DNA of 64,000 nucleotides from Oribacterium sp. NK2B42 (lineage in GTDB: Bacteria; Bacillota; Clostridia; Lachnospirales; Lachnospiraceae). The notes under the pieces were generated by a model. It made no database searches. It was given only the letters and a program-made list of their open reading frames with translations, and was not told where the DNA came from. A program made the translations under genes and the position numbers. Below, in pieces: positions 26,824 through 31,912 of the stretch. The stretch spans positions 1 to 64,000 of the forward strand of contig NZ_AUJX01000021.1 in NCBI RefSeq assembly GCF_000424445.1, read 5' to 3'. The stretch's first letter is position 1. Every line of letters begins with the position of its first letter.

Positions 26824-27960
26824 TCAGCTTGATTTTACGATTTTCCAACGGTTGTTATAAAGTGAATCGCCTGCAGGTCCCAGGTAGTGGTAGAACTCGG
26901 AGGTTTTCAGGAGTTCTGAGGTGTCGGGGAAGACTGCTTCGTTTTCCAGGTACTCTTCGTCAAGGAGGTCCATGGCGCCGACATTGGGAGTTGAGTAGGT
27001 GATGTACTCAAAGTTCTGAGCTGCCACGTCAGGTCTGCAGAGGAAGTCTATCCACTTTTCGGCATACTCTTTGTTGCGGGCATTCTTTGGGATAACCCAG
27101 GCGTCGATCCAGAGGTTGGTTCCCTCCTCAGGGATACAGTACTCAACATCGATTCCGGAGCCGTCAAGCTCGTCCTGAATGTAGAGAATCTCTCCGGAGT
27201 AGATAACTCCGACGGCCGCTTCTTCGCCGATCATCTTGTCTCTGACCTGATCGATTACATAGGCCTGCACGATGGGCTTCTGCTCAATGAGGTCCTGCAT
27301 TGCCTTGTCAAGCTCCTCGGAATTCTCGGTATTGCAGCTGTAGCCGTTCTTCTTGAGGGCTACCATAAAAGCATCCCGGACTGAATCCTGCATGAGAATC
27401 TCGTTCTTAAGGGCCGGGTTCCAGAGATCCGACCACTTTGTGGGGTAAGGAACTCCAAGCTCGTCAAGCATTCTTGTGTTATAAAGGATTCCGACGGTTC
27501 CCCAGGTGTAGGGCACCGCATATTTGTTTCCCGGGTCGAACTGGGAAGCCATCTTCATGTAGTCTTCGCCGATGTACTGAAGGTTCGGTATCTTTTCAGG
27601 ATCAAACTCCTGAAGAAGGTTGTTCTCGATCATCTTCTCGATCATGTAATCCGAAGGGCAGACACAATCGTAGATAACTCCGCCTGCCTCGATGACCGGA
27701 TACATTTCCTCCAGGGTCTCGAACACATCGTAGACAACATTGATACCGGTCTCTGCCTCGAACTGATCGATGAGCTCGGGATCGATATACTCTCCGGCAT
27801 TATAAACATATAAGGTTTTTGATGCCGGTGTCGGTATCTCTTCTATATCTTTTTCGGTGCTGCCGCAGCCTGCAGTAACAGCGGAAATCCCCGCAGACAT
27901 AAGAAGAACTGCTGCACCTGCGGCAAAACGCCGCCTGTACTGTTTTAAAACTTTTTTCAT
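26824..27960 (-). CDS. potD: Spermidine/putrescine ABC transporter substrate-binding lipoprotein
   Basis: This 378-residue extracytoplasmic protein has a lipoprotein signal peptide with lipobox TAGC (Cys32). The PotD family core follows: LYVYNAGEYIDPELIDQFEA, then YDCVCPSDYMIEKMI, YAVPYTWGTVGILYN and the late NLWIDAWVIPKNARN. It captures polyamines and delivers them to PotBC. It is the last gene of the operon potA-potB-potC-potD, 160 bases after potC, with a strong terminator behind it. Binding preference between putrescine and spermidine cannot be told by eye. Confidence 0.93.
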   Translation of the reverse strand: MKKVLKQYRRRFAAGAAVLLMSAGISAVTAGCGSTEKDIEEIPTPASKTLYVYNAGEYIDPELIDQFEAETGINVVYDVFETLEEMYPVIEAGGVIYDCVCPSDYMIEKMIENNLLQEFDPEKIPNLQYIGEDYMKMASQFDPGNKYAVPYTWGTVGILYNTRMLDELGVPYPTKWSDLWNPALKNEILMQDSVRDAFMVALKKNGYSCNTENSEELDKAMQDLIEQKPIVQAYVIDQVRDKMIGEEAAVGVIYSGEILYIQDELDGSGIDVEYCIPEEGTNLWIDAWVIPKNARNKEYAEKWIDFLCRPDVAAQNFEYITYSTPNVGAMDLLDEEYLENEAVFPDTSELLKTSEFYHYLGPAGDSLYNNRWKIVKSS

Positions 27961-28121: not shown

Positions 28122-28919
28122 TCAATTTTCCTTGCTCTTTTTCTTCTCCAGCCACTCCGGCGCATAATTTCCCATGATGAGGATGATGAACACCGTCACA
28201 AAGATGACCGTGGACAGCGCATACATGGTGGGGCTGATGCCCTTTCGTACCTGGCTGTAAACCAGCGTCGAGATGGTGTCGATTCCCGCACCTCTCGTGA
28301 AGTGGGTAATGATAAAGTCATCAAGACTCATGGTGAAGGCCAGCATAAATCCGGAGGTGACACCCGGCATAAGCTCCGGCAGCACCACCTTGAAAAAGGC
28401 CTGCGTGGGTGTTGCACCGAGGTCAAGCGCCGCCTCATAGGTATCCTTGCTGGACTGTCTGACCTTAGGCATTACACTGAGAATTACGTAAGGCAGGTTG
28501 AAGGTAATGTGGGCGATCAGTATGGTGTGGAAGCCCAGGGATATCCTGAAGGCTATGAAGCACAGCATCAGAGAGATACCCGTAACGATGTCGGCATTGA
28601 GCATAGGGATATTGGTAATGCTCATGATTGTGTTCCTGGACCAGGACTTCATGTTGTTAATGCCTATGGCCGCGATGGTGCCAAGCACTGTTGCGATAAG
28701 TGCCGACAGGAACGCAATGATGATAGTGTTTCTGAGGGCAGCCATAATGGTCTCGTCCGACCACATTTCCATGTACCAGTCGGTGGTGAAGCCGGACCAC
28801 TTGGCGCGTGAACGACCGCTGTTAAAGGAAAGAACAATCAGGGTCGCGATGGGGGCGTACATAAAAAGCACGATGATTGCGAGGTAGCAGTCAGAGGCAA
28901 ATTTCTTTAACTTGTCCAT
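28122..28919 (-). CDS. potC: Polyamine ABC transporter permease PotC
   Basis: This 265-residue inner permease has six hydrophobic segments. Its EAA loop is EAALDLGATPTQAFFKVVLP, which contacts the ATPase. The N-terminus (YLAIIVLFMYAPIATLIVLSFNSG) is typical of PotC. The start ATG at 28917-28919 overlaps the potB stop by one base and has GAGGAGG upstream, so the two are translationally coupled. Confidence 0.93.
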   Translation of the reverse strand: MDKLKKFASDCYLAIIVLFMYAPIATLIVLSFNSGRSRAKWSGFTTDWYMEMWSDETIMAALRNTIIIAFLSALIATVLGTIAAIGINNMKSWSRNTIMSITNIPMLNADIVTGISLMLCFIAFRISLGFHTILIAHITFNLPYVILSVMPKVRQSSKDTYEAALDLGATPTQAFFKVVLPELMPGVTSGFMLAFTMSLDDFIITHFTRGAGIDTISTLVYSQVRKGISPTMYALSTVIFVTVFIILIMGNYAPEWLEKKKSKEN

Positions 28920-29749
28920 CACATGATACCTCCTCTTTCCGAATCTTTATGGTCATCGAAGTGGTTAACGATAAGCATTGACACGATGACGAATATCATG
29001 AGCACGAGACTCAGTCCCGAGCCCTGATGCCAGTCGGAGTCCTGCATGAACTCCTGCTCGATGACATTACCGATGAGGTAAATCTTGCCGCCGCCAAGCA
29101 TGTTGGAGATGGCGAAGGTTGTGAGAGCCGGTACAAATACCATGGTGACTCCGGAAACAATGCCCGGGACAGACAGCGGAAGTATGATTTTCGTGAGGGT
29201 CTGCCAGAAGCTTGCTCCAAGGTCATAGGCCGCGTTGATGGTATTGTCATCGATTTTCATGAGTGCGTTGTAAAGCGGCAATATCATGAAAGGAAGGAAG
29301 TCGTAAACCATTCCGATCATGACTGCTGCTGTTGTGTTGATGAGGTGCTGCTCCGGGAGGTGAAGGGTTGTCAGTATTCCGTTGATAACGCCTTTTCTCT
29401 CGAGGAGCGTCTGCCATGCCAGGATTCTGAGAAGTGAGTTCATCCACATGGGGAGGATGAATATGAACACAATGAAGGAGCCCCGGCTGAACTTGTTTTC
29501 ACGAAGGATCATGGCCAGGGGGAATGCTATCAGGAAGCAAACTATCGTGCTGGCTGCAGAAAGCATCAGCGCCCTGTACAGTGGCCTGTAGTTTTCCCAG
29601 CGGCAGATCTCCATGAGATTGCTCAGGGTGAAAACATTAACATCATTTGTAAAACCGTAATACAGGATGGTGAGCAGCGGGATCACGATGAATCCGACGA
29701 TCCACACTACATAGGGTCCCGCAAGATATCTGGAGGCTTTGTTATTCAA
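28919..29749 (-). CDS. potB: Polyamine ABC transporter permease PotB
   Basis: This 276-residue permease pairs with PotC. Features are YLAGPYVVWIVGFIVIPLLT, the conserved MWMNSLLRILAW and the EAA-type loop NAAYDLGASFWQTLTKIILP. I place the start at the TTG at 29747-29749: GGAGG lies eight bases upstream, and it overlaps the end of potA by eight bases. A longer upstream reading would start inside potA without an RBS. Confidence 0.92.
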   Translation of the reverse strand: MNNKASRYLAGPYVVWIVGFIVIPLLTILYYGFTNDVNVFTLSNLMEICRWENYRPLYRALMLSAASTIVCFLIAFPLAMILRENKFSRGSFIVFIFILPMWMNSLLRILAWQTLLERKGVINGILTTLHLPEQHLINTTAAVMIGMVYDFLPFMILPLYNALMKIDDNTINAAYDLGASFWQTLTKIILPLSVPGIVSGVTMVFVPALTTFAISNMLGGGKIYLIGNVIEQEFMQDSDWHQGSGLSLVLMIFVIVSMLIVNHFDDHKDSERGGIM

Positions 29750-30821
29750 TGTCCATCGCCTCCTCATCCTCAGATTCCGGCTTGTTCATGATCTGAATGT
29801 TTGAGGGCTTCACGTAGAGGCCGACTTTGGTGCCGGGCTCGCGAAGCTCGGTGGAGTGGATGAGCCACTCGTAGCCGTCAGGTGTGGTGCACTCCATCTC
29901 GTACATTTCGCCCTTGAAGATGACGTGGGTCATTTCGCCGTGAAGGATCGCCTTAGGATCATCATCGTCCAGAAGCTCCACATCCTCAGGTCGGATAACA
30001 ACGTCGACCGGCTTGTTGGTTCCGAAGCCGGCGTCGATACATTTGAAAACTGCCCCGAGGATACGAACGGAATAATCTTCGATCATTATTCCGGGAAGGA
30101 TGTTGGAATCACCGATGAAGTCGGCAACAAAGGCATTCTCAGGCTCATTGTAGATCTGCTCCGGGCTGCCGGCCTGCTGGATGTAGCCCTGGTTCATGAC
30201 TACCACGTAGTCTGACATGGTAAGGGCTTCTTCCTGGTCGTGAGTTACATATATGAAGGTGATTCCCAGCTCGTTCTTGAGTCTTATGAGCTCGTACTGC
30301 ATTTCCTGGCGGAGCTTTAAGTCAAGGGCGCCCAGGGGCTCGTCCAGAAGGAGGAGTCGCGGCTCATTTACGATGGCGCGGGCGATGGCGATTCGCTGCT
30401 GCTGTCCGCCGGAAAGGGAGTCGATGCGGCGCTTCTCGAAGCCGTCAAGGTTTACGAGCTTCAGGGCATATTTGATCTTGTCTTTTATATAGGAATCGGA
30501 TTTTTTCTTTATACGGAGTCCGAAGGCAATGTTTTCTTCGATGCTCATGTGCGGGAAGAGGGCATACTTCTGGAAAACCGTGTTGAGCTGACGCTGGTTG
30601 GCGGGAAGGTTTGTGATGTCCTGACCATCGAAAAGGACGCTGCCCTTGTCGGGCTTCTCGAATCCTCCGATGATACGGAGTGTTGTGGTCTTTCCGCAGC
30701 CTGAGGGGCCCAGCAGCGTTACGAAGCTGTTCTCATGTATGTCCAAGGACAGGTCATCCAGGATGATCGTTCCGTCGTAGGCTTTAGTAATGTTTTTTAA
30801 TTCCAAAAGATTTCTGCTCAA
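29742..30821 (-). CDS. potA: Polyamine ABC transporter ATPase PotA
   Basis: This 359-residue ATPase has Walker A GPSGCGKTT, signature LSGGQQQR, Walker B LLLLDEPLGALD and a C-terminal TOBE-like regulatory domain (VVIRPEDVELL). It energises import through PotBC. The start is the TTG at 30819-30821, placed after AAGGAGGGGAAAA. An upstream in-frame ATG lies within the recurrent leader motif and lacks an RBS. It is the first gene of the operon. A terminator at 30918-30949 and a long structured RNA lie upstream, which suggests transcriptional attenuation or a separate RNA gene. Confidence 0.93.
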   Translation of the reverse strand: MSRNLLELKNITKAYDGTIILDDLSLDIHENSFVTLLGPSGCGKTTTLRIIGGFEKPDKGSVLFDGQDITNLPANQRQLNTVFQKYALFPHMSIEENIAFGLRIKKKSDSYIKDKIKYALKLVNLDGFEKRRIDSLSGGQQQRIAIARAIVNEPRLLLLDEPLGALDLKLRQEMQYELIRLKNELGITFIYVTHDQEEALTMSDYVVVMNQGYIQQAGSPEQIYNEPENAFVADFIGDSNILPGIMIEDYSVRILGAVFKCIDAGFGTNKPVDVVIRPEDVELLDDDDPKAILHGEMTHVIFKGEMYEMECTTPDGYEWLIHSTELREPGTKVGLYVKPSNIQIMNKPESEDEEAMDIE

Positions 30822-30917
30822 TTTTCCCCTCCTTATCAATAAGCGCATGTTTTTTCCGTTTATATCTGCCATACAGATGCAGACTATCTGGCTCCGCTGA
30901 CACCGAACCTGTGCATC

Positions 30918-30949
30918 AAAAAAGGCCGGAGTCCGAAAAGACTCCAGCC
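30918..30949 (-). terminator. Intrinsic terminator just upstream of potA
   Basis: On the minus strand GGCTGGAGTC pairs with GACTCCGGCC and is followed by six T residues. No protein gene precedes it, so it ends the structured RNA from 31404 or attenuates the pot operon. AGACTC at about 31009-31014 (read on the minus strand) could pair with GAGTCT of its left arm and act as an antiterminator. Confidence 0.85.
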
Positions 30950-31404
30950 TGTATTACGATCGATTCCGAAAATGATCACCTGCACCCCACAGGTTCTTTT
31001 GTGTAGAAGAGTCTCATCAAACCACTATTCTTATAGGTTTAATATCGTTTCAAATGCAAAAATGTATAATATGCATTTTCACTTCTCTTCAGTATTTTGT
31101 TTCCGTTTCGTCTACTCAGAGTGCTTACAAAGGCAACCCTATTGATCGTTTCACAAGATGGAGCATTTACTCCGTTCAGCAGTTAATCTCAACACCCGCA
31201 CTCTCGTCATATTAAGTGCCGGGCATCCTGATTATCGGCAACGCCTTATAAGATACCGCTAAATACTTATAAAATTTGAGTCCTCCTGACCTTTCTAATC
31301 AGGGCCCATCTTTCATGTATCCAGTCCCCCCGGGAACCTTTGCATGCCACAGGCTACTCAATCAATAAAATCATTTGTAAAACATCTCTGTTTCACGCAT
31401 TTTC
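30918..31404 (-). ncRNA. Large structured RNA of about 490 nt upstream of potA, family unknown
   Basis: There is no open frame of note, but many conserved-looking hairpins on one transcript. Paired arms are at 31285-31303 (CCTGA/TCAGG), 31195-31223 (CCCGCACT/AGTGCCGGG), 31160-31173 (GGAG/CTCC), 31052-31078 (AAATGCA/TGCATTT), 31019-31040 (AAACC/GGTTT) and 30978-30994 (ACCTG/CAGGT), ending in the terminator at 30924-30949. A good promoter at 31411-31439 reads into it. I see no tmRNA, RNase P, SRP, 6S or group I/II intron signatures. It may be a stand-alone large ncRNA (ROOL- or OLE-like size class) or a polyamine-responsive leader. Confidence 0.6.
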
Positions 31405-31410
31405 AATCAG

Positions 31411-31439
31411 ATACTATCAGCAAAAAGATATATCGTCAA
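31411..31439 (-). promoter_or_regulatory. Promoter of the structured RNA / pot leader
   Basis: On the minus strand TTGACG (31439-31434), exactly 17 bases, then TAGTAT (31416-31411). Initiation is expected near 31404. Confidence 0.65.
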
Positions 31440-31486
31440 CGGGATTTTTAATCATCCCGGAATATAGTATATCTTACTTGTAAAAG

Positions 31487-31513
31487 TCCCCTTGGTCCAC
31501 CGGCTGAACTGTT
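31487..31513. repeat. Half copy of the ACAGTTCA/GGGGACGG element
   Basis: GTCCCCTTGGTCCACCGGCT followed by GAACTGTTA equals the right half of the palindrome at 12916-12970. It lies just left of the first type I TA module. Confidence 0.75.
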
Positions 31514-31665
31514 ACTCTTACTTCACGACTTATAGTCGAAATTCAGACTATAGGATAATTCTGCATCCTATGCTACAATCCCAATCAGTGCTTGCCAAAG
31601 CGGTAGGCGGTTAGCCCTTTCATCACGAAGGGCATTTTGTAAGTCCCTTCAGAAAGGAGGGCTCC

Positions 31666-31749
31666 ATGATAAGTTATTCTGATTTATTCCAATTTGGAAT
31701 TTTGATCGTTGCTATCATCGGTCTCGTATATGAGATAACAAAAAAATAA
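31666..31749 (+). CDS. Holin-like type I toxin, copy 1 (27 aa)
   Basis: The 27-residue peptide is MISYSDLFQFGILIVAIIGL followed by VYEITKK: a short polar start, one membrane-spanning segment and a basic end. This matches the small holin-like toxins of Firmicutes type I systems. The RBS AGAAAGGAGGG lies seven bases before the ATG and can pair with CCCTTC just upstream (31645-31660), so it is probably hidden in the full-length mRNA. The stop merges into a bidirectional terminator. A copy with four substitutions lies at 50690-50773. Confidence 0.8.
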   Translation: MISYSDLFQFGILIVAIIGLVYEITKK

Positions 31750-31832
31750 CCGCCCACAAGCCTAGAAAACTTGGGCGGTTATTTTTTAACAACCTAGTAA
31801 AGGGCTAACCGTCTATCGGCAAGCACTTTTTA
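31742..31832 (-). ncRNA. Antitoxin antisense RNA, copy 1
   Basis: A minus-strand promoter at 31840-31868 would start a transcript near 31832, running toward the toxin gene and ending in the shared palindromic terminator (AATAACCGCCC/GGGCGGTTATT, 31742-31789). It overlaps the 3' end of the toxin mRNA. Its 5' end repeats the 5' end of the toxin mRNA (AGTGCTTGCC, then GGTTAGCCCTTT). Convergent transcripts with a common terminator are typical of type I systems such as par/Fst. Confidence 0.6.
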
Positions 31833-31839
31833 CATCTTT

Positions 31840-31868
31840 ATAGTAAATCAATATTCAGTATATTTCAA
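31840..31868 (-). promoter_or_regulatory. Promoter of antitoxin RNA, copy 1
   Basis: On the minus strand TTGAAA (31868-31863), 17 bases, TACTAT (31845-31840). It is preserved at the same offset in copy 2. Confidence 0.7.
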
Positions 31869-31883
31869 CAGGCATTTTCAGCA

Positions 31884-31906
31884 ACAGTTCACCGTCTGAA
31901 CTATTA
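31884..31906. repeat. Short remnant of the ACAGTTCA element
   Basis: AACAGTTCACCGTCTGAACT is a compact inverted repeat of the same end motif. It lies just right of type I TA copy 1. Confidence 0.6.
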
Positions 31907-31912
31907 CCATTT

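Follow-up and report, generated by a model that had tools for sequence, protein, structure and literature searches.

The 64,000-nucleotide stretch of Oribacterium sp. NK2B42 DNA analysed here (the window) carries on its minus strand a real, structured and conserved leader RNA in front of the polyamine transport genes potABCD. Our data make it likely that the region is the potABCD 5' leader and attenuates transcription according to the supply of polyamines. The attenuator is probably an OFF riboswitch, with spermidine or putrescine as its most likely signal. Comparison with other genomes indicates that the window RNA is an expanded, genus-specific variant of a broad family of polyamine-gene leaders.

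The order along the minus strand is a promoter (31439-31411), a structured RNA of about 490 nt, a terminator (30950-30918) and potABCD. The promoter reads TTGACG-N17-TAGTAT, with TTGACG at 31439-31434 and TAGTAT at 31416-31411. Hexamers and spacing are kept as TTGACG-17-TA(G/A)TAT in all nine loci examined (the window, seven relatives from the genus and L042), hence the 17-spaced promoter of the original prediction is not a chance match. The intrinsic terminator predicted near 30918-30949 was also found, as AGGCTGGAGTC-TTTTCG-GACTCCGGCCT with a U tract; its stem of 12 pairs spans 30950-30923 and the U tract runs to 30918. No open reading frame of at least 60 amino acids overlaps 30873-31912 on either strand, in agreement with the claim of some 490 nt without an open frame. 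Folding of the 492-nt RNA gave -149.2 kcal/mol compared with -121.5 (sd 5.6) for 100 shuffles, a z-score of -4.9 that bears out the strong structure noted earlier; the core alone, folded against shuffles, gave a z-score of -3.8. A box, TCGTWATAYA(A)GG, lies directly 5' of the terminator (30959-30948 in the window, minus strand) in all seven potA copies of the genus and not in L016; its GRTCGT could pair with ACGATC of helix P1, and the box may belong to the switch.

The transporter genes follow on the same strand. PotA, the polyamine ABC transporter ATPase (29742-30821), matches TIGR01187 with 368.8 bits (cut-off 355.6) and PF00005. Its frame stays open further upstream, to an ATG at 30872, and the likely start codon is the TTG at 30821-30819, preceded by the Shine-Dalgarno sequence AAGGAGGGG at 30834-30826, which agrees with the predicted start 97 nt past the terminator. 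In the relatives L014 and L015 the potA frame likewise begins LSRNLLEL. Next come a potB-like permease (28919-29767; best NCBIfam match PotB, PF00528), a potC-like permease (28122-28922; second-best NCBIfam match PotC, PF00528) and a potD-like binding protein (26824-27960; best NCBIfam match PotD, PF13343/PF13416), the three NCBIfam matches being below the curated cut-offs.

The ATG at 30872 sits within a dispersed element (like GGAGCCAATTAGATCTGCATCTGTATGTCAGAGATAAACGGCGAAAAACATGCGTTTATAGAGGAGG) that is missing 3' of the core from the seven other expanded copies. For this reason we rejected the 46-nt 3' piece as a part of the RNA. The element occurs in the window at 30895-30835 and 26539-26506 (both minus strand) and in L002-L008, with 16 further genome matches, and was read at nine places (seven loci and the two in the window), L007 being two tandem copies. 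By eye, its 3' end is a Shine-Dalgarno-like stretch mostly placed directly 5' of an apparent start codon (L004 is ambiguous), and a mini-frame like MSEINGEKHAFIEE is embedded in it. Upstream of the polyamine RNA, a 27-residue peptide encoded at 31666-31749 on the plus strand matches Pfam Hol_Tox above the cut-off and NCBIfam ComI and PepG1 below it; the peptide is flanked by inverted repeats (31587-31620 and 31799-31827), and together they likely represent a type I toxin-antitoxin locus.

We then compared the window with the 4227 covariance models of Rfam 15. The whole 64-kb window had no match at the gathering threshold, and at E<=10 nothing relevant was found in 30800-31900. Rfam families exist for ROOL, OLE, tmRNA, RNase P, 6S, group I and II introns and the speF motif. 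The models of ROOL, OLE, tmRNA, RNase P, 6S and the group I and II introns had no match in the window, in line with the earlier view that no common RNA class fits.

A single match to R1, a covariance model described below, was found in the 64-kb window at E<=10, and it places a P1-P2-P3 three-way-junction core at 31369-31135 (minus strand; 37.4 bits, E=1.9e-5). Relative to R1, the window core has extra sequence in P2 (73 nt) and in P3 (89 nt). The match pairs TTATTGATT (31368-31360) with GATCAATAG (31147-31139) as P1, and TTTTATAAG (31274-31266) with CTTGTGAAA (31157-31149) as P3. P2 (GAGT/ACTC, 31359-31278) holds the genus-specific 73-nt insert with three sub-helices, namely P2a (GCCTGT/ATGGGC), an inner hairpin (GTTCCC/GGGGAC) and P2b (CCTGA/TCAGG), and the 89-nt P3 insert contains a variable hairpin, P5 (31223-31195). 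Folding gives a further hairpin, P4 (GGAG-TAAATG-CTCC, 31173-31160), which would sequester a candidate antiterminator strand. The 5' strand of this candidate is the J segment TGCTCCATC (31165-31157), whose predicted partner is TGGAGT of the terminator left arm. An outer stem, P0, is formed by CAGAGATGTTT (31390-31380) and CACTCTG (31123-31117), as judged by folding and by a family-wide swap test (-19.5 vs -14.0; none of 5,000 swaps as strong, n=71). An alternative hairpin, GTGAAAC-AGAGAT-GTTTTAC (31396-31377), is possible at the 5' side of P0.

A 10-codon frame can be read by eye in the P2 insert, which would suit attenuation by ribosomes reading a short leader ORF. However, this insert is replaced in L016 and missing from the compact copies, and we regard a leader peptide as very improbable.

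A DNA search of 61 genomes gave matches in 11. Eight of these genomes, that of the window being one, belong to the 17 available for its genus; the remaining three gave short matches close to the cut-off. The original prediction had proposed a search for homologues upstream of potA, and potA does follow the RNA in seven genus genomes, the window counted. The eighth homologue, L016, lies before an Orn/Lys/Arg decarboxylase gene (PF01276) and differs in its variable parts, and the copy in L010 is 97% identical to that of the window. An exact scan of one genome per species (84,980 species; close neighbours of the window's genome may be missing from the set) with the most conserved 39-nt stretch returned seven contigs, titled Oribacterium (5), Lachnospiraceae bacterium JC7 and uncultured Clostridiales bacterium. 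These are the contigs of the seven genus relatives and add no further loci. In five genomes of the genus (G010, G013, G014, G015 and G016) the expanded copy is accompanied by a second place with CTTGTGAAACGTTCAATA; four of these five second copies were read (L058, L107, L121 and L122), and they are compact leaders before decarboxylase genes. In the window's own genome R1 gave no further copy and also missed the window copy, so this search is uninformative. A pattern search of the same genome found the window and two places within long reading frames. Only one gene with an Orn/Lys/Arg decarboxylase domain was found in this genome, C16 (L130); its overlap with the reading frame upstream of it leaves no room for a leader.

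Starting from the divergent copy L016, we came upon a compact form of the leader that is widespread across Lachnospiraceae and in other Bacillota. A search with the core of L016 gave matches in 85 of the 397 genomes of the family at E<=0.01, mostly via the 3' motif CTTGTGAAACGGTCAATAAG, with a few of the weakest matches falling on other parts and perhaps due to chance. An exact two-part pattern was found in 18 of 391 Clostridia genomes and its reversed control in none. In the compact leader P1 is UUAUUGAUU/GGUCAAUAA, P2 is GAG..CUC and P3 is UUUUAUAAG/CUUGUGAAA, and there is also an inner hairpin, P3a, and a variable hairpin. R1 describes a 94-position core and was built from 28 compact copies with no sequence from the genus, these being 28 of the 29 loci L022-L050, L042 having been left out as divergent. 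It also detects L010-L015 and L042. At E<1e-6 it finds all 36 class and phylum loci first brought in by the pattern or by RF02440, and three further genus loci in this set had been found with R1 itself. These 39 were taken from the 46 later loci L058-L103, of which the other seven are duplicates of the same places. R1 misplaces L016 (13.7 bits). L042 belongs to a different genus of the family; its P2 is enlarged and, as in the genus type, ends in AGGAGGACTCAAATTTTATAAG, which makes this copy look intermediate.

The other reading in the original prediction was a new large ncRNA of ROOL/OLE size, and the length near 490 nt and the strong folding would suit an ornate RNA of this type. It found no support, because the RNA proved to be an enlarged form of a compact leader, with a core of 94 positions, that immediately precedes polyamine genes and shares their strand. 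With no Rfam match and a polyamine gene after every readable copy, we give this reading hardly any weight.

At all 75 loci with a readable downstream gene, the next gene is a polyamine gene on the same strand. These are Orn/Lys/Arg decarboxylase (37), S-adenosylmethionine decarboxylase (speD, 17), potA (15) and carboxy(nor)spermidine synthase (6, of which three loci are nearly identical). The window shares this arrangement, with potA downstream on the same strand. The census took the nearest gene with a polyamine protein motif within 650 nt of P1 at 76 true core loci; of the 72 rows first collected, L026 (unreadable, at a contig end) and a spurious plus-strand row of L097 are excluded, and L048, L084, L097, L098 and L100, true copies missed by the text filter, were read separately and are counted in the 75. 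Eleven downstream genes were checked by NCBIfam and/or Pfam and all agree, with carboxynorspermidine synthase scores below the NCBIfam equivalog cut-off. At L039 a Clostridiales-1 RNA (RF01699, 104.6 bits; 1397-1240, minus strand) lies downstream of the core and, by position, before the decarboxylase gene.

One part of the family is already filed in Rfam. RF02440 (SpF59_sRNA, 'ldcC RNA') is a 54-nt module 5' of P1 with a CGGACAG..GGGUC hairpin, and was detected in 14 of the 20 family loci scanned with Rfam (drawn from 30 fetched). For the core, none of the loci scanned gave a match to any Rfam 15 family. RF02440 matches were found in 16 of 148 Clostridia genomes and 10 of 299 Bacillota genomes, one being common to both, and among 14 named control genomes only in Lactococcus lactis; the window has no match to it at the gathering threshold, nor at E<=10 in 30800-31900. 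The P1-P2-P3 core lies directly 3' of the module at all 25 distinct RF02440 loci from class and phylum (at L084 the core was seen by eye with one base missing, and L097, L098 and L100 are nearly identical). A tolerant text pattern found the module in 51 of 71 loci, and the 20 without it include all eight expanded-type genus loci, some of the 20 (e.g. L058 and L059) showing a degenerate module by eye. Hence the core is universal and the module optional. RF02440 and the window RNA are alike in that the module is an optional 5' part of the same leader family with a polyamine gene downstream, whereas the window lacks the module and carries two large inserts in its core. This suggests that RF02440, entered in Rfam as an sRNA of streptococci, represents just one piece of a larger regulatory RNA. 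The module-less L022, L044 and L070 and the window (31396-31377) have in common, by eye, a short 5' hairpin like GTGAAAC-AGAGAT-GTTTTAC, with a purine loop, AGAG or GGAG, that complements the CTCT box on the 3' side; loop and box could possibly form a pseudoknot that replaces the RF02440 module in module-less copies.

We take SP0916 to be the lysine decarboxylase gene. The pneumococcal F59, an 82-nt RNA between SP0915 and SP0916, is tabulated as an sRNA (PMC3395615), and the window RNA has its own conserved promoter and terminator, as would a stand-alone, trans-acting small RNA that merely adjoins potA. Yet each of the 75 readable copies precedes a polyamine gene on its own strand, the terminator arm changes along with the core, and attenuators also produce short terminated leaders. 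We therefore consider a stand-alone small RNA quite unlikely.

Evidence of a switch comes from J, the strand leading into and including CUUGUGAAA, which is complementary to the terminator left arm across 59 loci. The mean duplex energy was -11.9 kcal/mol compared with -8.3 (sd 0.32) for permuted partners, with 0 of 10,000 permutations as low (n=59 of 71 loci), although permutation does not fully remove shared ancestry. With 25 dissimilar J representatives the values were -12.2 and -8.3 kcal/mol (0 of 20,000 permutations), and J against the terminator right arm gave a mean of -4.6 kcal/mol. The test left out L016, L044, L067, L078, L090, L091, L096 and L103, where the script found no terminator (that of L016 is visible by eye), and L040, L045, L075 and L095, with arms shorter than 8 nt. 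J was a better partner than all sampled non-overlapping windows of its own leader in 37 of the 59 loci, and complementarity was poor in L042, L038, L099, L070 and L046. In 46 of the 59 the 3' strand of P3 takes part in the pairing, which makes pairing and P3 mutually exclusive. This family-wide complementarity indicates a terminator/antiterminator switch.

Within the genus, J and arm change together, as in L011 (GCUCCA/UGGAGC), L013 (ACUCCA/UGGAGU) and the window (GCUCCA/UGGAGU), and L016, with its terminator taken by eye, has CACAUC/GAUGUG. The pairing is strong in L011, L012, L014 and L015 (-15.3 to -16.2 kcal/mol). In the window it is -10.0 kcal/mol and one among several candidates of comparable strength; J ranks 20th there of 123 windows as a left-arm partner and is outscored by four other segments, AGACTC included. 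The free fold of the window transcript up to the left arm prefers AGCCUGU with ACAGGCU, a pairing fully kept in L010 and not in L011-L015. AGACTC (31014-31009) had been proposed as the antiterminator. It is indeed complementary to the terminator left arm, but of the eight expanded copies just the window and L010 have it 3' of the core, the other six lacking it there, and we rejected it.

A covariation test had also been suggested. P1, P2 and P3 together showed one compensatory cell, no better than shuffles; since these helices hardly vary, covariation neither supports nor refutes them, and we rejected it as proof of P1 and P3. In the expanded type, with the structure drawn from the window sequence, nine pairs changed on both sides compared with 4.3 in shuffles (0 of 500), and further pair types were not above shuffles (322/500). 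The both-side changes come mostly from the genus-type P2a (2 of 6 pairs), inner hairpin (2 of 6) and P5 (4 of 5 counted pairs); P2 and P2b are invariant and no P4 pair changed on both sides. In the compact type helix P3a raises these measures: a first run, of which the helices other than P2 count, gave 13 cells changed on both sides (0/500 shuffles) and six pairs (1/500), with further types at 10/500; a second run gave six cells (0/500) and three pairs (23/500), with further types at 113/500.

Collectively, our computations establish the parts, their conservation, the family homology, the association with polyamine genes and the family-wide core-terminator complementarity. The region combines a conserved aptamer-like domain with an expression platform before related genes, the arrangement looked for in a riboswitch, and riboswitch function is predicted as likely. 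Of the readings first put forward, that of an unusually long, putatively polyamine-sensing leader has gained from the copies before potA in seven genus genomes, the homologue before a decarboxylase gene and the polyamine genes at 75 of 75 loci. It is backed as well by the conserved terminator/antiterminator arrangement.

We propose a model where transcription would start just past 31411 and yield a three-way-junction RNA whose P1, P2 and P3 are closed by P0. With the core folded, and most likely polyamine-bound, P3 and P4 would hold the strand UGCUCCAUCUUGUG; with this strand held, the terminator at 30950-30918 would form and potABCD would be OFF. If the core is not stabilised, UGCUCCAUCUUGUG would pair with the left arm (UGGAGU), the terminator would be blocked and potABCD would be read. 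The polyamine is thus envisaged to bind the RNA directly, and its binding to turn the genes off. Spermidine or putrescine is the most likely signal because the uptake, decarboxylase, SpeD and carboxyspermidine genes share the polyamine pool.

The same attenuator might instead be read by a polyamine-responsive RNA-binding protein or another trans factor that stabilises or melts the core. Such a factor would conserve the same architecture, and the AU-rich, nearly invariant P1 and P3 could be a protein site, but the large complex junction, the conserved unpaired bases and the optional modules argue against it and we think this alternative unlikely.

The attenuator that we favour can be set beside RNAs already described at polyamine genes. 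The spermidine riboswitch is a variant of SAM-I, described as rare, with a consensus drawn from 13 representatives (PMC10853860). Like the switch proposed here it is a terminator-based OFF switch, placed before ldcC, speB, speD and speE, but it is built on the SAM-I fold (PMC10853860), and the window has no SAM-type Rfam match. The SAM-I core, as represented in Rfam, had no match in the window among the 4227 models. The potE and odc1 motifs are likewise candidate motifs before polyamine genes; they differ in that potE is reported for Veillonella and for environmental samples and is separated from its gene by about 200 nt, and odc1 is an alphaproteobacterial hairpin/pseudoknot with a uORF (PMC8632094). 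A premature terminator also precedes potABCD in the ABC-leader of Pasteurellaceae, named for Haemophilus somnus and Pasteurella multocida (PMC2965389), which is gammaproteobacterial and is set beside the window RNA by description only. The speF motif is a putative cis element before ornithine decarboxylase, but it is described from alphaproteobacteria (PMC11477304), and the window has no Rfam match to it. We found no description of 'ldcC RNA' or of the P1-P2-P3 core in the open-licence papers searched, and an earlier description elsewhere is possible. Literature matches for 'SpF59' were unrelated by title, and a term search for 'ldcC' found nothing in two ncRNA surveys (PMC8632094, PMC11109978).

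Natural polyamine riboswitches have been long sought, and the only validated class that we found in the open-licence papers searched is described as rare variants of SAM-I (PMC10853860). The window family would be a much wider candidate, with polyamine genes at every readable locus and members in Lachnospiraceae, in other Clostridia and beyond them in Bacillota. We hold it an evenly balanced question whether the family is a new, widespread class of polyamine riboswitch, with P1-P2-P3 as its universal sensor, accessory parts that can be swapped (RF02440 in the majority of copies, the large P2 and P3 inserts in Oribacterium), and uptake and synthesis as one regulon. If true, the new class would control pot uptake together with ldcC/speA, speD and carboxyspermidine synthesis.
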